NCBI GenBank assembly: GCA_964019165.1
Contig: OZ025281.1
Span: forward strand, 10,369,888 to 10,433,887
Source: Mastigias papua
Taxonomy: Eukaryota > Cnidaria > Scyphozoa > Rhizostomeae > Mastigiidae
Length of the DNA: 64,000 nucleotides
Reading direction: 5' to 3'
Both the position numbers and the translations under genes were made by a program. Below, in pieces: positions 7,130 through 57,129 of this stretch. Within the stretch, counting starts at the first letter, position 1, and each line of letters starts with the position of its first letter. The notes beneath the pieces were generated by a model. The model saw only the letters and a list, made by a program, of their open reading frames with translations, was not told where the DNA came from and did no database searches.

Positions 7130-8790
7130 ACAAATAAAATACAAATAAATCACTTAATATAGCGCATTTTTGATATAACATCTTAAAGTGCGCTTCACAG
7201 TTCCTAAAAGTTCCTAAAAGCTTAAAATGTCCATCTAAAACTTATTAAAAAGAAAGGTCTTTAACTTTTTCTTAAATGTTTCAACATTAACGCATTGTTT
7301 TAAATCATTAGGAATGTCATTCCACAGTCGTGGTCCCATTACACTGAATGATCTGTTTGCAAATTATTCTCTCTTTACTCTGGGAATATCTAGTTTCATG
7401 TACATATTGTTTGATCTTAATAGTCTCACACTCTTACTTAGCTTCAGCATATCTTTCAGATATTGAGGAGCTGTGCCTTTCAGTGCCTTAAAAACTAGAG
7501 TTAGAACTTTGTGTTCAATTCTGAGATGTATAGGTAACCAATGAAGTTGTTTATGACATCTTGTGCTACTTTCATGAGCTTTCCTTCCTAGTACAGCTCT
7601 GGCAGCTAACACCTGTACTCTTTGCAGCCCACTAATTTCATGTTTTGGTAGGCCAATCAAGATTGCATTCGAGTAGTCTAGGTGGGACATCACTATACCC
7701 ACAGCTATTGTTTCTGCAGCTTCATCTGTTAAAACTTTCCTCACTTGTTTCAATCTGTACAATCCATACATTGCTTTTCGACACATCTCCGTTATATGTT
7801 TTTGCATGTTGAGTTGTTCATCCATATAGGCTCCAAGGTATTTTATTACTTCAGTCCTCTTAACTAGCTCTCCATTAACATCAAGGCCCTTATTCTCACA
7901 TTTTGTAAGTTGATAAGAAGAACCAAAGTATATGTACTCCGTTTTAGAGGGATTCATTGTCAGTCTATTGCTATCCATCCAGTCTTTCACAGCAAGACAT
8001 ATTCCCTGTAGTTTCTGGTTGCCTTCACATTCATCTTGGTGGTGACTTGGTTTGAAAGATGTACTTAAAGCATGATCATCAGCATAACCATAGATATGCA
8101 GGTTTTCAGGGATAATATCTGCTATCGTACTGGCATAGATTAGGTAGAGAACTGGCCCCAAAAATGACCCTTGGGGGACAGAGCACATCACATCCTTTAG
8201 TGGAGAATATTCTGATCCTACATTGACCTTGAACTTGCGGCATCGAAGATAGGATTCAAGCCAGCTAAGAGCTACTCCTTCAATACCAAAGTGCATGGAT
8301 AGTACATCTAACAAGATATCATGGTCCACTGTATCAAATGCCGCACTAAGATCAATTGCCACTAATGCTGTCACTTCTTGCTTTTCCATCTTCCATAAGA
8401 TATCATTAAATATTTTAACTAGTGCTGTTTCACAACTATAGCTCTCTCTGGAGGCTGACTGATAGTCTGGAAGTAAGTCATTGCTGCCGCAGTGTTCCAT
8501 TAACTGTACCAGAGCAGCTTTTTCAAGTAATTTTGACAAGAAACTCAAGTTGCTTACTGGCCTATAATTATTCAATAAAAGTTCTAATACTATTTTCTTC
8601 AATGTTGGTCTGACAATTGATAATTTCCATTCTTTTGCAAAAACTCCTTGTTGCAGTGACAAGTTGATCAGTTTAGTGATAACTGGTAGAATTTTCTTCA
8701 GGATGATGTCATTTTCAGAATATTTGTAGGCATGGCATCTAGTTCACAGCACTTTGTTGACATTCCTTTTATTAGAATACGAGAGGAATG
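7130..8790 (-). pseudogene. CR1-type LINE, reverse transcriptase, 5'-truncated
   Basis: This is a non-LTR reverse transcriptase that copies its own RNA at a nicked target. The main frame covers 8662-7364 (432 codons). It shows NNYRPVSNLSFLSKLLEK (residues 31-48), the first catalytic Asp in AIDLSAAFD (D104), SVPQGSFLGP, and the active-site box YADD at 193-196. Upstream, KCCELDAMPTNILK lies in another frame (~8760-8710), so a frameshift sits near 8700. Downstream, after a TAA at 7364, the same frame continues with GPRLWNDIPNDL and ends near 7233. A 3' UTR follows with an AAATAAAATAC tail near 7130-7155. The endonuclease is missing. The element lies inside an older LTR-element remnant. Confidence 0.85.
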
Positions 8791-24535: not shown

Positions 24536-24649
24536 TCTACAAACTTTACGCTTGATTGTATTTAAATATTCAATGTTTTTCGTTCGGAATAAGTGTTTGA
24601 AATGTTGCAAGTATTCTATTGCTGTATAATATTCTGAGTTGAAGTTGTT

Positions 24650-25794
24650 GAGTTAAGCATTTTAGCCACCCTGAACTAGCCCAGATGAATCTATATTTTG
24701 CATCAACCATTGCCATGAAAATTATTGAGTAGAAGTTCTTGAAATTATGAAATTCTTTACATGCTTCTAGACCACCAGGGGGGCATTTCAGAGGTATGTG
24801 ACAGCCATCTATTGCCTCATAAGCATATGGAACCTGCCATTCTTGCTCCATTTCTCTAATTTTCTGATGCAGCACATTGCTGTTTGTTGGAAAGTGTCCA
24901 TCAACATATCTAATCCAGAGATTTTCTACAATGGCATTGGCAACTTCCCTAACAACGCAGCACACTGTAGCCTCACCAATTCCAATTAATTCTGCAATAG
25001 TGTGGTAATAATCTCCTCTGCTGAGTCTATAGAGGCAAATTGCAAGTCTAAGTTCTGAAGAAACTGGATCTTCTGTAAGTGTAGCTTTTGATATGTCAGT
25101 TTTTATTAGTTCACGAATCAGTCTAAATGTTTGCCTTGAAACTCTGAAAGTTTTCTTGAACCGCTTCTCAGAGTAGGTTGACCACACAAGGTTCCACCAG
25201 CCACTGTTTCTCACTACTCTTCGACACGAGCGTACACGGGGCCCAGGTAATGTTGCTAAGGCATGTCGAAGAGCTACTAGAAGCAACTGCAAAACGAACA
25301 AGCTTTTCAGAAGTCGACTTCGCTTTTCATTCATCAGAAGCAAAATGGCTCTCTGCAATAATTGCCTTCTTCTTCTTGCTGCAGCCAAACTTTTGAAAAA
25401 CAAAATTTTCTTCTGCCGGTGAATGGCTAATGGGTTCATGTCCAGGACAAGGTTCCTCTGACGGTGCTGACTGAATACTTATATGAGATCTAAATAAAGC
25501 TTTTCCTGATAAACTATACAACGTAATAATACTTCAAAATATCAATCTAGAACGTGCTTTATATCTAAGAACTGTGGTGTCAATAATTTTCCCGCCAAAG
25601 ATCACTCGAGCCCAGTCTCGCTTAAGCCTTTACCACTGTCACCAAAGTGAGGCTAGCTTGAATGCCAGTCAAAATGCGACACAAGTTTGACGTTTAAATC
25701 GAACGACATTTCTCTCATGAACTTTTGTCGCGCTTTTGTCGATCTTAGCTGCAATTGATTCGACGCGACTAAAGTGCGACGTATAAATCAAGCC
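24650..25794 (-). mobile_element. PIF/Harbinger element, 3'-truncated
   Basis: The upstream terminus of this minus-strand element is at 25794. It reads (minus) GGCTTGATTTATACGTCGC and is preceded by TTA, which fits the 3-bp TWA target of PIF/Harbinger. The matching second terminus is not found, because the gene breaks off near 24668 at a segment with repeated CCGTCCAACAG motifs. The internal ~350 bp between terminus and start codon has no gene. Confidence 0.6.
24668..25439 (-). pseudogene. Harbinger-type transposase (HARBI1-like), truncated
   Basis: The frame opens at 25439. The first ~70 residues are basic and hydrophobic. A helix-turn-helix-like stretch FRVSRQTFRLIRELIK lies at ~98-113. 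The DDE nuclease follows, with the first Asp in YEAIDGCHIPLKCP (D211) and the second in MVDAKYRFIWASSG (D246). The sequence diverges right after ASSG (~residue 257), so the third acidic residue and C-terminus are gone. Family members are about 350 residues. It would cut DNA at TWA sites together with a Myb-like partner, which is not seen here. Confidence 0.8.
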
Positions 25795-34222: not shown

Positions 34223-34838
34223 TTAATGTCGCTGTATAAATGTTAGGTGCAAAGTTCGCTTACGGCCGCGAGGAATACATAATTTATTGTTTTTTATAAA
34301 AATGCTGCTAAAAATAGGGAGAGCTTCACGCAAGTATGTATTGATGTCGGCCTTGGTTTTGTATGTACCGATGATTGATAAACTTTGCGTACTTGCTGAT
34401 TCATACTGTAAATCAGGCTTCTCAAGTTCTGGACTTCCCATATCCTTCCATGTCTGTCTTGATATGAAGTTTCCACCCGTTGCAGTATCCAACTTTATTC
34501 TGCATGTTCGCCCTTTGATCTTGAATGGTACTTTCAGCTTTGGCAAGGATACTTCGTTTACCGCTTTGACTTCAGAATGAGACTTACTGATGCCTTGAGT
34601 TTTTAGCATTTACAGACTGTCTCTCTCTGTACACACCTTCCAGATACATCATTTTCATGCCACAGAGGTTGCACTCAGAGTTATTGAAATGACATTGTGG
34701 TGCTTGACGGGATTCATCACCACAGCGGTAGCAAGCTGATTTCCCTGTCGTGGGCTTGATTTCCTTTTCCTTGCTAGATTGCCGTGGAGTAACATTGTGA
34801 ACAGGGTTTGGTTTAGGACCATGAGCAGTGTTTTCGAC
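34223..34838 (-). pseudogene. Gypsy gag end and protease (copy A)
   Basis: The minus strand from 34838 continues a gag frame and shows a zinc knuckle, CYRCGDESRQAPQC with NNSECNLC (~34735-34650), in a frame that also runs into the protease frame at 34609-34223. The protease reads VPFKIKGRTCRIKLDTATGG, then NFISRQTWKDMG. The active-site triplet DTG has become DTA, so it is probably inactive. The gag frame is cut at 34838 by the 5-kb transposon and resumes at 39933. Downstream reverse transcriptase is missing. Confidence 0.65.
34830..34838 (+). other. Left 9-bp target-site duplication
   Basis: GTTTTCGAC abuts the left terminus of the transposon. The right-hand partner at 39924-39932 is GTATTCGAC, an 8 of 9 match. 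Confidence 0.8.
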
Positions 34839-35638
34839 AACAAGGGCGAAAATCGTTATTAACCAATCAGCTTCATACTCTCATATGCTGTAAAAGCCAA
34901 TCAGAGCTCGTAGAGGCCCCCTGACTCTTCTGAAAATGTAAACAATGGCGGCCAAAAAGCCGCCGAGCTGTGGGAAAGTGACCCTCGAACTCCGAACTGC
35001 TGCAAGCGAAAAACGCTCAAAACAAAATAAACTGATGTTTTTCATTTAATATAGGAGTCATTCTAGGTTTTCATCGTGCGCATTTTGAAAACTCCCTATT
35101 AAACTGGAGATATGACAGTTTAAAGTTAGCCTAAATTCGCCAAATTTGCACTACACTTGAAGCTTCGAACCACAGTACAGTATTTACCACACATCCACAC
35201 AGACTGTCTGCTTTTAAATTGAAATCATCTTATAAAGTCATACAAACTATTGAATTTCTAACAATTTCAATTAGGCTTTTACAATTTTAACCATTGTTTA
35301 GATACCAAAATGGCCTTCTTTAACACAATTCTCTCTATCTACTGTACATCAAATTTTGTTACTTGAATTTTGAAAAGGTAACTTGGTCACCTGAAGAAAA
35401 TTGAAATCCAACAGTAATTGTTGCTATCATTAATTATTGCCGCATCCTAATGCGGCGAGGAGGCCTATCTTTATTTTCGGTTCAACACTAATTTTTTTCA
35501 TGGAATATCAATTTGTAATAAGTCTACATGATGATGCAGGGGGCTATCACCACAAATTCTCTACATACAAGTCTAACACTCCCGAGAGAATTGAACGCCC
35601 GTCGTGTTAAATCAAAATTACAAAAGTACATTTTCAGA
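34839..35638 (+). repeat. Left 800-bp terminal inverted repeat
   Basis: Reverse-complementary to 39124-39923 and of equal length, so there are no net indels. It contains an AT-rich interior, a CCGCATCCTAATGCGG mini-hairpin near 35441 and a GC-rich outer 150 bp. The match ends exactly at CATTTTCAGA. The transposase start codon lies 130 bp inside its inner edge, so this TIR probably holds the promoter. Confidence 0.92.
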
Positions 35639-35767
35639 TCAAATGTTAAATGTACTTTACGAAACCCCTGTTATGTTGAAACAAAGTTGTAAGGAATGTT
35701 GTTTGGAGAATTTATTTGACTTATCTTGATACGATACTATTAAGTTTTTAAAGAAAATGGCTTAATA

Positions 35768-38700
35768 ATGCCGAAAGTGTTCACAAGGCTTTGTCATAAT
35801 CCTCTTCATTATGCATGGACTGGCGATACAACAGAGAAAAACATAATTTCTTTGCGTGCTAATGGCTTGGGGAAAGTTATCAATGTATTTAGAGCCATTG
35901 AAGTTGAAAGAGGTGAAAGAAGGAAAAATATAACAAATTGCTGTTCGCTTTGTCTCACGTATTGCTGTGAAAAAGGGATTTTAAAGAGGAAATTTATGAA
36001 AAAAGTTACACCGCAATTAATTGTAAAGGTTAGTAAATTTTTTTATTTGTATTTATATACCAGTCCAGGGACGCCGGAACTATATTAGGGAAAAGGGGCC
36101 CAACAGGAAGGGAGGGACGCTCAAGACCACTGGTGAGAAAAGTGAGCCAAAAATGGGGGCTCTCTTGAATGCCCTTTCCATTTGTCAGTATATATGGTAC
36201 AATTTGAGCAATATCTGATATTTATAATTTTTATGAATTATGCATCTCTACAAGACTCGTTTGATTTGAGTGATTTGAGCGATTTATGTATTTCTACAAT
36301 CTTAATACTAAGACAAAATTTTCAAAATCAATTCATTTTTTGTAGATACAAGCCGTTTTAAAAGAGCATGGATCCACAACAAGTGATTTTGAATGGGAGT
36401 CATCAGTAACCGAAACAGAAGACTCTGAATTATGTTCTCAAGCATCCTCCTCTGGTCAGCTTCCACTTCAAAACGATTCGCAGATAATTTTGTCTTCGAA
36501 AACCCAAGCTGGTACAGAAGAAAAGTCCTCTCAAACAGACATTTCTGGTTTTTTTAGGCAGGAATTGTATGATGAAATAGCACAAAAGTCTTCTGCTAAA
36601 TTTGATATGAAAGAAGAAATCATAAGAGTTAGAGCAAAGTGTAATGAAATTTTTGGGGCTAATGGGTACCCTGAAATGGATCCAGGAAAATTGGAGAGGA
36701 TATGTCTAGAAGCCAATGCCTTAAACATATTTCCGTTTATTCATAATGCTATGTGCCAGGACAGAGCCTCTGAAAGTCGATGCTACTTAAATAAAATCCG
36801 GACAATGGTTGTGATTTATATGATGATATATGGACAGTCTCAGCGAGCCAATTGGTTCCAGGTTGCCCTTTCCAGAACACTATCCCAGCATGGAATTAGC
36901 GATTGTGGTTTAGCATCACTAAGAAACCTAGGAATCACTGCCCATCCTCGCACAGTTACCTTAGCATCACTTTCATCAGCTTCAAGTCACCTATCATCTG
37001 TAAATGAGTTCATTAAAGAGGCAGCAGATAAACAGCACTTCATTGTCTTTTTCATTGACGACTTTCACAATATTCATACCATGCATCGCCCTTCTGATAA
37101 AAAGCAATCACAGTCAGTTCATATGTCAACTCTTCTCATCAAAGTATTCAAAAACATAAATGCCATACCAGTAGAAAGAAATGCAAGTGCATTGAACAAA
37201 GAGCCAGCTAATGCCTCTTTACTTAAAGCAATAGTGGATAGATGCATGAGCACATTATCAAAAACATATGCCCAAGTAATGCCTGATTATATCACATCCA
37301 AGTATTTTGATCCAGAGGAAGAAAGAAGAAGGCTCCTTATTCATGATTATCAGCAAACAGAATTGAAAGAAATGAGATCAATGCATAACACAAAACTCGT
37401 AGATTGCTTGGAGATGCCTTTAAAAAACTTTCAGGACACCGTTGCTGCTCTCGAATACATTTTTCATAACGAACTTTCCACTTATCTTGCCAAATTTTTT
37501 GTACCATTCATTGGTGACTGGCCAACACAATTCTACATGCGTCAGTTTGTATACAGTGATACAGTATTTCTTCGTAATAAACGTAACATTCTTCCTTTTA
37601 TTGGCCCATTGCACATCTCATTGAATTCAAGGCAATCTGTTGTACTGAAATTCTATCCTCTCTTTAAAGAAATGCATTGCTTTTTGTTTGGTAGAAAGGC
37701 AGTTTTGGCTAAGAAGCCAAAAGCCTGGCGCCAGTCTTTGCTATTGGAAATTTTGTATGGTGGTTGGTCATTAATTCGAGATGAAATAATGGCTCTTTTT
37801 GACAAATGCAAAGATACAGAATATCTTACCATCCTAAACCTTCTCGATAATTACTGCCCTCTAGTTTTAAGTCTGTACTCCATTGAGTTCAAAAATAACT
37901 ACTTTAAGAATTTCTTCCATTCTATCGTTCGCTGCTGGGTGATGCTAGTAATTTTCAATAGAAGACATTACAACAAAGCCCTTATAATTCTTCTCACTTC
38001 TTTCTATCATTTGCAAATAACTGGCCATCCTCTTTACCAAGTCCTCTCTAATCATTTAAACGCCTTTGATGAGTATCCCGTCGAAAACTGTCATTCCATC
38101 CTGAGAAGCAAAACAAAGTCCACGGACACTGGAGAGCAAATTTTTCGAAAGGCAAGAGAAATTGATGCCTGTAAAAATGATCTTCAAGAATTCCAATCAT
38201 GGTTTGTTTCGAAAAGAAAGCATGCGTTCTGCCCAAAAAAGATCAAAAGTTTAAAGCTTCAAGCTGCAAAGTTTTTAATTAGCAAATTTGAAAGGATCGG
38301 AGATAATCCAGGACAAGCAAAGATGATACGTAGGACCAGGGGGCAGAAAAAGACCCTAACAAAATGGATGCTTCCAAACATATTTGGCAATGAAATCGTC
38401 AGTAATGAAGTTTTACCACTTGCATATAACGATCCTCAGACTATGCCTTCAAATGAAAAGTAAGTAGTGCCTAACGTTCTAGCTAGCACTGTTCTTTACT
38501 TTGATCTTTAATATTTTTCGATTGTTACCATATTAAATGCTCAATGAAATGATTCGTTATATTTTATTACTTTGATATATCAATTGGCTTCACACTCTAT
38601 TTTGTACTGAAATTGCGAAAACATACTAACTCAACTGCTTAAAATACAGTATTTTAATCTACCGATCTATTTGAATATTTTGAAACAAAAACCTACCACT

Positions 38701-39061
38701 GTCATCTAGGAAATGCGACAAACATGGATGCAGTTCAGCCAGCCCCATATGGAAACTTTTTCAATGCGGGCATTCATTCCACGTTGATTGCAATTTGCCG
38801 GCTTTGAGCGAGTGTCCTGTTTGCAAAATTCATCTGAAAAGTAAAATCCAAGATCTACCGAGGAAAGCCAATGAATCCATCAAAGATCTGACCTTTTGCG
38901 TTGATGATGGAGCCGAACTTGAAGGTGAGATTGATCAACATGAAAATTCCAACAGTACTATCGATGAGGATTTTGGTGATGTTTATGTTGACCAACAAGA
39001 AGTGCTTTTGATGATTCAGCAAATTTCCTCGTGGCCACGGCCATCTCCACCGAGAATTTAA
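35768..39061 (+). CDS. Putative transposase with C-terminal RING finger
   Basis: Exons 35768-36028, 36346-38459 and 38710-39061 join in phase to 908 codons plus TAA. Junctions are AAG/GTTAGT, TTTTTTGTAG/ATA, GAAAA/GTAAGT and TCATCTAG/G. The N-terminus has a Cys cluster (NCCSLCLTYCC, ~57-67). The core shows FIVFFIDDFHNIHTMHRP (D325/D326), FVPFIGDWPTQFYMR (D478), IGPLHISLNSR, LLEILYGGWSLIRDE, LNLLDNYCPLVLSLYS and FDEYPVENCHSILRSKT (E667). I infer a DDE-type RNase H fold with D325 or D326, D478 and E667. Residues 794-830 form a RING-H2-like finger (C-x4-C, C-x-H-x2-H-x2-C, C-x2-C). An acidic tail follows. I recall relatives among uncharacterised cnidarian, sponge and fungal proteins. The function is inferred from its place between intact TIRs. 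Confidence 0.8.
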
Positions 39062-39123
39062 ATGAAATGTGATCAATTAATCCACGCTACTCATTCGAAC
39101 AGTACGTGAATTGTTATTTTTGT

Positions 39124-39923
39124 TCTGAAAATGTACTTTTGTAATTTTGATTTAACACGACGGGCGTTCAATTCTCTCGGGAGTGTTAGACTTGTATGTA
39201 GAGAATTTGTGGTGATAGCCCCCTGCATCATCATGTAGACTTATTACAAATTGATATTCCATGAAAAAAATTAGTGTTGAACCGAAAATAAAGATAGGCC
39301 TCCTCGCCGCATTAGGATGCGGCAATAATTAATGATAGCAACAATTACTGTTGGATTTCAATTTTCTTCAGGTGACCAAGTTACCTTTTCAAAATTCAAG
39401 TAACAAAATTTGATGTACAGTAGATAGAGAGAATTGTGTTAAAGAAGGCCATTTTGGTATCTAAACAATGGTTAAAATTGTAAAAGCCTAATTGAAATTG
39501 TTAGAAATTCAATAGTTTGTATGACTTTATAAGATGATTTCAATTTAAAAGCAGACAGTCTGTGTGGATGTGTGGTAAATACTGTACTGTGGTTCGAAGC
39601 TTCAAGTGTAGTGCAAATTTGGCGAATTTAGGCTAACTTTAAACTGTCATATCTCCAGTTTAATAGGGAGTTTTCAAAATGCGCACGATGAAAACCTAGA
39701 ATGACTCCTATATTAAATGAAAAACATCAGTTTATTTTGTTTTGAGCGTTTTTCGCTTGCAGCAGTTCGGAGTTCGAGGGTCACTTTCCCACAGCTCGGC
39801 GGCTTTTTGGCCGCCATTGTTTACATTTTCAGAAGAGTCAGGGGGCCTCTACGAGCTCTGATTGGCTTTTACAGCATATGAGAGTATGAAGCTGATTGGT
39901 TAATAACGATTTTCGCCCTTGTT
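39124..39923 (-). repeat. Right 800-bp terminal inverted repeat
   Basis: Mirror of 34839-35638. The inner edge at 39124 is 62 bp after the transposase stop codon, so transcription termination probably lies within the repeat. Confidence 0.92.
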
Positions 39924-39932
39924 GTATTCGAC

Positions 39933-40340
39933 CACTTTGGCTGCATTCTCTGTTTCGATCTCAATTTAAATAGCTCTAGTTAAATCCAGCCCGTCATCTG
40001 TGACCTTAAAAAGGGCTTTAAGCAGTGCATCGTTCTTCAGAGAGCATATAGAACGAGATCTGAGTGCTTCGTCTTGAGGGTCCTTGAGGGATGAGAAGTT
40101 ACATGTGACAGCATCTTGACGAATACGTGCCACACGTTTTTGGAGTGTTTTACCTGGTGTCCTACGCATATCAGAAAGGTCATTAGCTGGAAAAATTAGG
40201 TCTTTTTTCCTGTCAAAAATTTCTCTTCGGATTCCTTGCCAAGAAAAATTTTGGAAAAGACTAAAACTTGAGGCAACTTGAGATTTGCCAAAAAATTCCA
40301 GATGGTAGAATTCGTCAAAATGGCTGAATTTTCGCACTGT
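39933..40340 (-). pseudogene. Gypsy gag, N-terminal side of transposon insertion (copy A)
   Basis: Minus frame 40337-39966 reads DLSDMRRTPGKTLQKRVARI, DAVTCNFSSLKDPQDEALRS and ALLKALFKVTDDGLDLTRAI, a Gag segment common in invertebrate Gypsy elements. It runs without a stop to the target duplication at 39932. The same frame resumes at 34829 after one copy of the 9-bp target is discounted. No ATG-plus-LTR context was found upstream; the first ~40 codons look unrelated. Confidence 0.6.
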
Positions 40341-44130: not shown

Positions 44131-45360
44131 TCAAAGACATTTTGTCCCCATAATATAGTCCTTTTGCCAGTTGGGAACCTTGATTGTTCTCATTGATCTT
44201 CTAAGCTCTGGTCTTGTACAAGGTATTAAACTATCTGGTTGCATATGAGAGTTTATGTCCCTGGGTGTATCTTCTACAGGTGTTCTTTGCTCATTAGATC
44301 CTGGTAACTCTGTTGCTTGTAAGGAATTTGAAATATCTGGATATGGTGGATTCACTTTCACTGCTTCATGAGAACTCCTGATCGCACTTTTGTTTCGTCT
44401 TATTGTCTGGCCCTTCTCTGTTGTAAGAATGTAGCTCCTTGGTGTACAGTGTTCATTGTCAATTACTGCATGTGTCCACTCTCTTCCAGTATCAACTATA
44501 ACTCTGACTGATTCTCCTCTTTCAAATCCATTGCGTGCTTTAGAGTTTCTGTTGTAATATGCTGCCTGTTTGGATTGTTGGTTGGTTAACTGCTGCTTTA
44601 CATTAACAGTAATTTTAGGCTTTAATAGACTATCTTTGATCGGCAATTTGTCTCTCAAACGTCTATTGAATAGCATCTGCGCAGGGCTGTACATCATTCC
44701 CTTGATTTTCGTGTTTCTATAACATAGCAATGCTAGGTTTGGATCAGTACCAGCTTCTTTGCATTTCCGAAGCATCATTTTAATGATTCCAACATACCTT
44801 TCTGCTTCACCATTGCTTTCTGGATACCTAGGACTCGATGCAACAAGGCGAAAATCCCATGACTTTGAAAAATCTTTAAATGTCTTGGAATTAAATGGTA
44901 CATTGTCAGCAACAATAATTTCCGGAATCCCGTGACGCGCAAATATAATTTTCATAGCTTGAACAACAGAGAACGCACTTTTACTAAGGACACTCACAAA
45001 CTCTGGATATTTGGAAAAATAATCAACGACTATGAGATAATCTCGTCCAGCAAAGTTAAATAAATCTGCACCAACTTTGAGCCATGGAGCATTAGGGATA
45101 TCATGTTGAATTATTGGCTCCTTCACCTGATTTCTTTGAAACTTATTGCAAACTTTGCACTTCTGTATTGTCTCCTCAATCTGCTTATTCATTCCTGGCC
45201 TGTAAATTATTTCTCTTGCAAAGCTCTTTGTCTTATCTATTCCAAAGTGACCTTTGATACAACCTTTGTAAAGCAACATCTCTTTCGCTTTCTGGAATAA
45301 TGAGCTTATTTGATAGGAATACCAAACCATCCTCCTTATATATCTCATGTCTTTTATCAT
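44131..45360 (-). pseudogene. Gypsy integrase (copy B)
   Basis: This 409-codon frame inserts the cDNA into host DNA in intact elements. The zinc finger is damaged: GHFGIDK keeps one His and CKVC keeps both Cys (C68, C71), but the first His is lost. The catalytic triad is present: D99 (VGADLFNF), D152 (IVADNVPF) and E185 (PESNGEAERY). A chromatin-facing C-terminal region with RLRDKLPIKDSLL and RPELRRSMRTIKVPNWQKDY ends 24 bp before the LTR side. The frame overlaps the upstream polymerase frame by 128 bp in another phase, so a frameshift near 45300 separates them. Confidence 0.85.
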
Positions 45361-47260
45361 AATAAGGTATTAACTTAGGGTCTATGTCCTTTTTATCAGG
45401 CCATCGTGCTTTGATATAAAACATTATTAGCTGCGATGTTTCATCTTTAGAAGTAGATAATTTGTACTCATTGATCTTTTTGGCAGGTGCTGGATAATAC
45501 TCCATTACCGAGTGTGCATGCAATTGGAACAAATCCTTCCCCTTTGAATCTGCATCAATAAAGGCTCTACTCAATGTGTCAGCAATATGCATTTCACTTC
45601 CTGGCTTGTATACAATATTTAAGTTGTATCTCAAAAGTTTGAGTAGCATCCTCTGTAACCTTAGTGAGACTTTATGAAGGTCTATTCTTTGAATTGACTC
45701 TAACGGTTTATGATCAGAATGAACAATAACATCTGCTCCATATATAAAATGATGGAATCTCTGTGCTTCAAATACAATAGCAAGAAGCTCTTTTTCGATT
45801 TGTGCCCAACGTTGTTCAGTTTCTGTCAATGACCTTGAAGCATATGATATTGGCTGGCCATTTTGAAGCAAACAAGCACCTAATCCAGAATGAATTGCAT
45901 CTGCTTCTATTACAACCGGCTTTGTTTCATCATAGTCTGTTAACATTATCTTAGAGCTTAGTATGTTCTTAATTGCTCCCAGTGCGTTATTTTGAGCTTT
46001 ATTCCAAGACCACACTGTTCCTTCTTTCATGAGTATCCGTAATGGTTTTGTGACTTGAACTTTATTTGGAATGAAAGGTGACAAATATTTTACCATTCCA
46101 AGAAGACGCTGAATATCTTTTTTATTCTCTGGATCTGGCATACTTAGAATTGCTTCCACTTTACTAGAATCTGCTTGTATACCTTCTGCCGACAGTTTTG
46201 TACCGCAGTATACAACTTCGTTCCTTTTAAATTGCAGCTTACTCGCATTAAATTTTATGTTATTATCTTTAGCTCGTTGAAGCACTGCAATTAAGGCTTC
46301 ATCATGTTCTTGTTCCGTATCTCCAACTATAAGCATGTCATCTGCAATAATGTGCACGTTCTTGATATCACCACATAGCTGAAAAGCTTTCTTCTGTAAC
46401 ACTTCGCTTGCACTTGATATACCAAAAGGCATTCGCTTGAATCTGTATCTACCAAAGTTTGTCTGGAACGTGGTTAAATCTCTACACGTTTCTTCTAGCT
46501 CAACCTGCCAAAATGCCGATGATTGGTCAACGATTGTAAAGAAACGTGGCTTCCCCAATTTTACAACAATCTCTTGAAATTTAGGGATTGTGAAATGCTC
46601 GCGCTTGATATATTTGTTTAATTCTCTTGGATCTAGACACAAACGAATACTGCCATCTTTTTTCTCTATACACACAATACTATTTACCCAATCTGTAGGG
46701 TGCTCTACTTCTTCAATGAAATTTTGCTTTACCATTTCTTCTAACTTTCTTTGTAATGGGACTATAAGCTTATGTGGAACCCTCCTTGGAACATTTATTT
46801 TCGGGTTCGTATCCTTTGTAAGCGTGATTCTGTAACTTCCTGGGTATTTTCCAAGCTCACCCTCAAAAACAGATCCAAATTGCTCTTTGATCTCTTGTTC
46901 CGTAAAACTATGGGGCTCAGACTTAAAAACTGCATCAACTCTAGAGCTCGCATTATTACCCCTCTGAATGAGACCTAGCTGAGTAGCAGTTTTTAATCCA
47001 AGAATAGGACATGTTTTATCCCTTGTGACATAGATTTCATCTCGCACATTGGCATTTTTGATACCAAGCTCTACCACAGCTTTGCCCATATTTGAAGTGT
47101 GCCACCATTCAATGTTTGCAATACAGCTTTGGATTCCTTCAATGGAACCCTCTGTACCAATCTGTCCCATTGTTCCTTTGAAATTAGGTTAACTTCAGCA
47201 CCACTGTCACTCTTGAATCTAATGACAGAGCTATCAATGCAAATTTTTTCCTACCAAACA
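45233..47260 (-). pseudogene. Gypsy protease, reverse transcriptase and RNase H (copy B)
   Basis: The protease active site DSGAEVN lies at ~47205 in a frame that shifts near 47080-47100 into the 645-codon polymerase frame (47170-45233). Reverse transcriptase blocks include NSIVCIEKKDGSIRLCLDPR, IVDQSSAFWQVEL (first Asp, D215), FKRMPFGISSA and the active box ADD at 276-278 (IIADDMLI; Gypsy elements usually have YxDD). RNase H shows D424 (IEADAIHSGLG), E461 (KELLAIVFE) and D486 (VHSDHKPLE), then IADTLSRA. The frame runs out at 45233 inside the integrase linker. Confidence 0.9.
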
Positions 47261-55235: not shown

Positions 55236-57129
55236 TTTCGTTAACGAAAATAACTTACCTGAAATCCCGCACCGATGCAATTTATACAGAATGCCTTCAT
55301 ACCAGACCCTGTCAAAAGCTTTTGACATATCGAGGTAAACAGAGCGAACGTCTAGGGTTGGATTGCAATCAAAAGCTTGAAAAATTGAGTTAGTGATAGA
55401 AAGAAGCTGATTAACTGCCGAGTCGCCTGGTCGGAAACCTGATTGGTTTGGATTTAATAAGTTATTTGTCTTCAAGTGATAATAAAGCGTATCAAACATA
55501 CATTTCTCTAACATTTTCCAGAAGACTGGAAGAAGAGAAATTGGACGATAGTTTTCTTTTGTAACTCTTGTGTTTCTTTTTATGAATCGGGACTACGTTT
55601 GCCTTTTTCCACACATCAGGAAATATACCTTGATTTAAACAATTTTCAAAGATCAGTCTGAGGGGCAATAGGAGTGCATCATCGCATACTTTAATCATCC
55701 GGATTGAAATATCATCCCATCCGTGCGCTTTATTCAGATTTAATGACCTAATAATCCTTAAGAACTTCTCATCGGAGATGGTAAATTCTGTAAGAGGTGA
55801 AGCTATAGGGGAATTGAATTTAGGAATTTCGCTCCCAGTGTAAATAGTAGTGCATTGTGCTATAAAGTAATCGTTGAAAACTTCTGCTTTCGCTGTGAAA
55901 TTCAAAACAAATATATAATTCTCTAAGATAGGGGGATAATTGGTAATTTGGTTTTATTTAACATATATTTAATAAGTGACCAGTAGGATTTATTTCTGGT
56001 CTCAGAACGTGCAATAGACGAGCCTGTTTTCCGGAAGTAATTTTCTTTGGCATCTTCAATCATGTTAGATACACGTGATATCATATTGTTAATGGCCTCC
56101 AATTTATGACTCGGCCAACCATTTCTAACAAATGACTTATATGCTAGATTCTTTTTCGCAATAAAATTTTCAGAGATTGTGTTATCCAGGGTGCCTGCTG
56201 AGGTCTGATTTTGATTGTTTTGTTTGGTATATAGTTTGAAAAGATGTTCAAGAGAGTTTCAGTCAGCAGCTCAACTTGTTGGTTAGGACAAGTCAGATTC
56301 TTGATGTTATCACGCCAGCAAAAGTTTTGGATATATTTGCGAATCGTATAGACATTCGCACGATCATAAAATCAGACCTTGCGGTAATAGGGAGGTGGTG
56401 CTAGATTTTTAACGCTTAGCTCACCGTAAACAATTTGATGGTGACATTGCTCATGTACAGATGGGTGAACACCTGATTCTAGAAATAGATTTGTTTGGTA
56501 GGTGAAGATAAGATCTATGCAGGATTTAGAATCTCCCATGATATGAGTTGCTTCAGAAATCAGTTGATGCAAACCAAGCTCGGAGGTGCACGGCTGAAAA
56601 ATTTTACCCTCTTCATTTTCGTTATCATTTTCCCGCCATTGTGGGGATCTACAGCTGAAATCACCAGTGATGATCACGGCATATGGGTTTTTGGCTGACA
56701 TCCTGAATAACATTACGTCAAAATTTTTAATAAAAATTTCAAATTCAGCGGTCTGACTAGGACTCCTATATAGGAAAACAAAGAAATATTTCTTCCCGTC
56801 AAGCTGGATCTCACTAACTATACATTCTGGAAGGGTGATATGGTCTGCTCTATTTCTGGCCGGAAAAGATTCTTTCACATAAAGACCAACGTCTCCTTTT
56901 TTTTAGGTTTCCCGGGTTGTTGCTTCTCGTTAGGTTGTACCCTCTAAGAGAAAAGTTTCCCTCATCGACGGTGTTGTCGAGGTGGGTCTCGACGATGCCT
57001 ATCAGATCATATTTGTATAGAGAATTGTATGCTTCAAGTAGGGAGACGCGTATATATTTATGAACACTAATACTATTTAGGTTCCATGAGCAGAATTTTA
57101 AGGTTTCCCGATGAGGGCCAGGGTTGCTT

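Follow-up and report, generated by a model that had tools for sequence, protein, structure and literature searches.

The window analyzed here, a 64,000-nt stretch of the Mastigias papua genome, holds at 34839..39923 a DNA transposon that was delimited by inverted-repeat comparison. Two terminal inverted repeats of 805 bp enclose a single spliced gene of three exons, assembled from the reading frames. We picked the introns at GT-AG boundaries, and the gene model, predicted from the sequence alone, has 908 codons plus a stop, as in the original prediction made from the same DNA. The pair of identical 800-bp repeats reported there corresponds to these arms, although they are not fully identical, matching at 804 of 805 positions with one mismatch. 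That mismatch lies within the inner 85 bp because the outer 720 bp are identical. One repeat listing gives an arm of 807 nt because two flanking bases pair too; we use 805 bp.

A 9-bp target-site duplication had also been proposed. The length holds across copies, but the window's own pair agrees at only 8 of 9 positions (one mismatch). Flank identity was 0.889 at length 9 in 17 copies whose ends were set blind to any duplication, 13 of them with a perfect match; at the other lengths compared (4-8 and 10-13 bp) it was 0.16-0.33. Adding L047, L048, L049, and L052, for which a 9-mer search helped to locate the ends, gave an identity of 0.905 with 16 of 21 perfect. The 9-bp duplication is far beyond chance.

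To find copies we searched the host genome (346.8 Mb, 172 contigs) with one arm, scoring the best 40 of 63 candidates. Of the 45 matches, 22 at 98-100% identity are the arms of 11 copies and the remaining 23, at 66-80%, are fragments. Six copies are full-length (5,082-5,086 bp), the window copy and five others that match it at 98.1-99.1% identity, and five are internally deleted (1,225-4,624 bp). Seven of the 11 have a perfect duplication; the window copy has its 8 of 9, L025 a perfect one plus two extra bases, and L022 and L028 none. The joined window flanks matched the genome 12 times: two matches are the window's own flanks, three are partial rows, and seven span the junction. All seven of these, when read, were empty sites with a single 9-mer versus two in the window, differing from the window 9-mer at 2 to 5 bases. 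The insertion site of the window copy therefore belongs to a repeat family, and the duplication is 9 bp. The flanks of the element (34689-34838 and 39933-40073) are part of a repeat that occurs at least seven more times in the genome, at 74-87% identity. The predicted intact DNA transposon is borne out: with long inverted repeats, a constant-length and mostly exact duplication, 11 bounded copies, seven empty sites, and a conserved gene, it is a class II element.

The similarity of the five full-length copies, together with the near-identical arms, shows that the element was recently mobile, and these sequences support the part of the original prediction that spoke of recent activity. The complete coding frame is open in two of the six full-length copies, the window copy and L030; L027 has one stop and L028, L029, and L031 have indels. 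The window protein departs at E376 and C582 (exon 2 numbering) from residues that its relatives and all six sister copies examined conserve, and C582 is two residues from the proposed catalytic E580. The window copy may therefore lack full activity, although its frame is open.

The gene encodes its transposase core in exon 2, whose 705-codon frame exceeds every other stop-to-stop frame in the list for the window. Both sequence blocks singled out beforehand, IDDFHNIH and EYPVEN..SILR, are in the protein, the second as EYPVENCHSILR. Motifs akin to the CHNPLH of exon 1 occur in the related protein P0003 (CHNPRH) and in Rhizophagus proteins (CSHPKH). The exon 3 finger matches Pfam zf-C3HC4_2 at E 0.0023, short of the cut-off, and a RING-like exon is also found in L041, L043, and L045, which are all of the searched loci with long matches (3 of 3). 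The best fold matches of the predicted model are the P element transposase (6p5a, 6pe2), then Hermes (4d1q, 8sjd); Foldseek places Hermes at the top. The model has an RNase H fold with three positioned acids, D239, D391, and E580; D238, directly before D239, is equally conserved. The predicted fold and conserved acids support the earlier assignment of the protein as a DDE transposase.

Table 1. Features of the window copy (positions in the window; residues in exon 2 numbering).
Feature	Position	Strand	Basis
Left target-site duplication, GTTTTCGAC	34830..34838	.	Copy-flank comparison and empty-site alignment
Left terminal inverted repeat, 805 bp, starts AACAAGGGCG	34839..35643	+	Arm alignment
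Subterminal CCAAT box, CCAATC, 25 nt from end	34863..34868	+	End comparison
Second CCAATC, left arm	34897-34902	+	End comparison
Exon 1, N-terminal Cys/His motif CHNPLH at 35792-35809	35768..36028	+	Gene model, motif comparison
Exon 2, transposase core, predicted RNase H fold with helical insertion	36346..38459	+	Frame list, model
Codon of D239, proposed first catalytic Asp	37060..37062	+	Model and conservation
Codon of D391 (GDWP), proposed second catalytic Asp	37516..37518	+	Model and conservation
Codon of E580 (PVEN), proposed catalytic Glu	38083..38085	+	Model and conservation
Exon 3, C-terminal RING-like zinc finger and acidic tail	38710..39061	+	Gene model, weak Pfam row
Right terminal inverted repeat, 805 bp	39119..39923	-	Arm alignment
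Mirrored CCAAT boxes, right arm	39894-39899 and 39860-39865	Mirror of left	End comparison
Right target-site duplication, GTATTCGAC	39924..39932	.	Copy-flank comparison

We also looked for related families in the same genome. The exon 2 protein gave 72 genome matches (best 63 of 254 candidates scored). Twelve related loci were read for ends; L050 and L051 did not resolve, and the other 10 have arms of 319-720 bp and 9-bp duplications, nine perfect and one with one mismatch. The element and its related families end in AACA(A/G)(A/G)G or AGCATAG. In eight loci from different families or lineages (the window, L041, L043, L045, L047, L048, L049, and L052), a CCAAT box begins 20-25 nt from the end at 14 of 16 ends, a count made without a chance test; four of the loci have it as CCAATC, the other four as GATTGG. 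Its presence may reflect no more than the shared ancestry of related families. The box fits the NF-Y consensus and so may serve transcription, end recognition, or both.

The two arms of a copy resemble each other more than they resemble the arms of other copies. Among 10 copies of the window family (L021-L031, with L026 excluded as too short), arm differences average 1.6 of 720 positions within a copy versus 6.8 of 720 between copies, and 33 minority variants are on both arms of a copy versus 16 on one. The arms of L041/L042 have no differences within a copy and three between, of 700. Gene conversion between arms, or repair templated by one arm, would produce this likeness. Arm homogenization is not a rule for the whole family: the window family and L041/L042 show it, whereas L043/L044 and L045/L046 do not.

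To place the protein we used three homolog lists: one of at least 100 matches, the best 120 of 165 for the P0100 query, and the best 120 of 307 for P0099. Cnidarian and sponge homologs had been anticipated. Among the minority of listed matches that carry an organism name, the seven animal-named relatives are all cnidarian (three from Rhopilema and one each from Dendronephthya, Oculina, Desmophyllum, and Acropora), while none is sponge-named. For P0100, 43 of the 120 listed matches are named for Glomeromycota genera, namely Rhizophagus, Gigaspora, Diversispora, Ambispora, Paraglomus, Glomus, and Entrophospora. Several Glomeromycota homologs within P0105-P0213 are annotated 'RING-type domain-containing' and, among the matches listed there, none as a transposase. 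One listed relative is labelled a Bacteroidetes metagenome-assembled genome and is probably misbinned. The window protein shares 25-34% identity with P0100 and the fungal relatives of P0100. In a tree of 48 selected rows, 17 of them without a group, 13 fungal rows were split from 18 others with support of 100/100; the 18 are seven cnidarian rows, seven from the window or host, and four EukProt rows that we counted as cnidarian. The host's own copies form at least four lineages. Judged by these proteins, the family is deep, with homologs in cnidarians and, at the protein level, in Glomeromycota.

Taken together, the element is a real, recently mobile DDE transposon whose superfamily is probably undescribed. 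We consider it likely that it is an autonomous cut-and-paste transposon of a deep family that cannot be assigned to any superfamily testable in this analysis. The 908-residue protein would bind the ends through its N-terminal Cys/His module and C-terminal RING-like finger, as the model and conservation suggest, and pair both ends. Cleavage would be by the RNase H active site D239-D391-E580 carrying a helical insertion, and the 3' ends would be joined to target DNA with a 9-bp stagger whose repair leaves the duplication. Since internally deleted copies exist, action in trans is likely and would mobilize them. With somewhat less confidence, we favor a new eukaryotic DDE superfamily of cnidarians and arbuscular mycorrhizal fungi, marked by the 9-bp duplication, ends of A(A/G)CAnRG, one CCAAT box of either orientation that families share at 20-25 nt from each end, a C-terminal RING-like finger, and long arms equalized within a copy between or during jumps in some families.

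If so, this would be a deep new branch of eukaryotic cut-and-paste transposases and a likely identity for many uncharacterized cnidarian and mycorrhizal-fungal proteins. The excerpt of PMC11075540 states that about two thirds of the transposons of Rhizophagus had lacked a classification. With its intact ends and near-identical copies, the element could be taken directly into assays of excision and integration. The CCAAT box near the ends suggests a link of end recognition or transcription with the host factor NF-Y.

The window has other mobile-element remains, all on the minus strand. Gypsy-type retroelement pieces (45236-47188 and 44134-45369) encode reverse transcriptase with RNase H and the integrase zinc and core domains, the core below cut-off. 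A partial PIF/Harbinger-like transposase is at 24573-25478 (DDE_Tnp_4, E 5e-5, just short of cut-off), and non-LTR-type reverse transcriptase and endonuclease pieces are at 7367-8743 and 56375-56902 (RVT_1, Exo_endo_phos_2).

Excerpts of PMC11075540, PMC10045372, PMC6446971, PMC4455052, PMC13359780, and PMC12730594 served for comparison with known superfamilies. In its inferred mode of action the element resembles P element, hAT, and MULE transposons. It was compared with named groups by Pfam, PDB sequence, and motifs, the 24 superfamilies in the excerpt of PMC12730594 not being compared singly. Pfam matches were listed down to E 10, and HMMER filters discard most above 0.1. Weak Pfam rows, AAA (E 0.05) among them, were dismissed as chance because they are below cut-off and scattered over members. 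DUF6589, a further candidate, was absent from the Pfam families listed (best 25 of 26; 25 of 42), and no paper on it was found. A scan of viral_contigs with the A1 profile gave 33 pattern matches and no relatives.

Repbase or Dfam may already list the superfamily under a name that neither the open papers nor Pfam use; known Rehavkus elements, for one, are described in Repbase only (PMC6446971, excerpt). We regard this as the most serious alternative, if an unlikely one. Neither the Pfam families listed nor two motif groups (C/DxxH and the CMC motifs) link the element to a named superfamily, the PDB sequence search gave nothing relevant, and in the open literature (most subscription journals being outside its scope) no work among the matches listed is titled as describing this group. 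Within this scope the group appears little described, as first suggested.

Transib elements leave a 5-bp duplication. Between the second D and the E, CMC and Transib transposases have the motifs C(2)C and H(3-4)H (PMC12730594, excerpt), which the element lacks, with CxxC in 0% of rows and H(3-4)H in at most 10%, which distinguishes it from Transib/RAG1 and CMC. The KDZ group (Zisupton, Dileera, Kyakuja) has a KDZ transposase and a 7-8 bp duplication in the same excerpt; compared by Pfam and description only, the element has no KDZ match listed and a duplication of 9. Merlin, Kolobok, Dada, Novosib, and Academ have no Pfam match listed either, and Pfam may not cover each.

It is improbable that the element is a divergent MuDR/Mutator (MULE) lineage, Rehavkus-like for example, that kept its 9-bp duplication and long inverted repeats while its transposase drifted past recognition. 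Both features agree with MuDR/MULE elements, whose duplications measure 8-11 bp and whose inverted repeats are often long (PMC6446971, excerpt), and a zinc finger is shared as well. However, the MULE transposase domain has no Pfam match in the window protein or among the families listed for relatives, yet Pfam MULE matches 11 places in the same genome, all more than 180 kb from listed relatives of the element. Likewise, hhalign of profile A1 or A2 against the host MULEs gave probabilities below 1%, while ten host-MULE pairs, some near-copies, gave 97-100%. C/DxxH between the second D and last E is a feature of the MuDR/hAT/P/Kolobok/Dada group (PMC10045372, excerpt) but is not conserved here: the best column pair reaches 17% of 70 rows and 15% of 40, and the pattern occurs anywhere in that interval in 15 of 70 and 11 of 40. 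Rehavkus has a PHD finger and a minisatellite before the 3' repeat (PMC6446971, excerpt). By Pfam and a tandem-repeat scan of the element, its finger is RING-like, not PHD, and no minisatellite precedes the right repeat, the only tandem array found being a 9-bp unit repeated 2.7 times in intron 1; this distinction is from the description of Rehavkus, not its transposase sequence.

We give equally little weight to the idea that the element is a remote offshoot of the P or hAT superfamily, despite the fold matches. P and hAT elements leave 8-bp duplications as against 9 bp here. No hAT dimerization domain is listed by Pfam for the window protein or relatives, while the hAT dimer model matches 130 times in the same genome; P-element and THAP domains also have no match listed. 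The RING-like finger and absence of C/DxxH further separate the element from P. What it has in common with hAT is the second-ranked fold match, to Hermes, with a helical insertion before the last acid, and with the P element a predicted RNase H fold that carries such an insertion.
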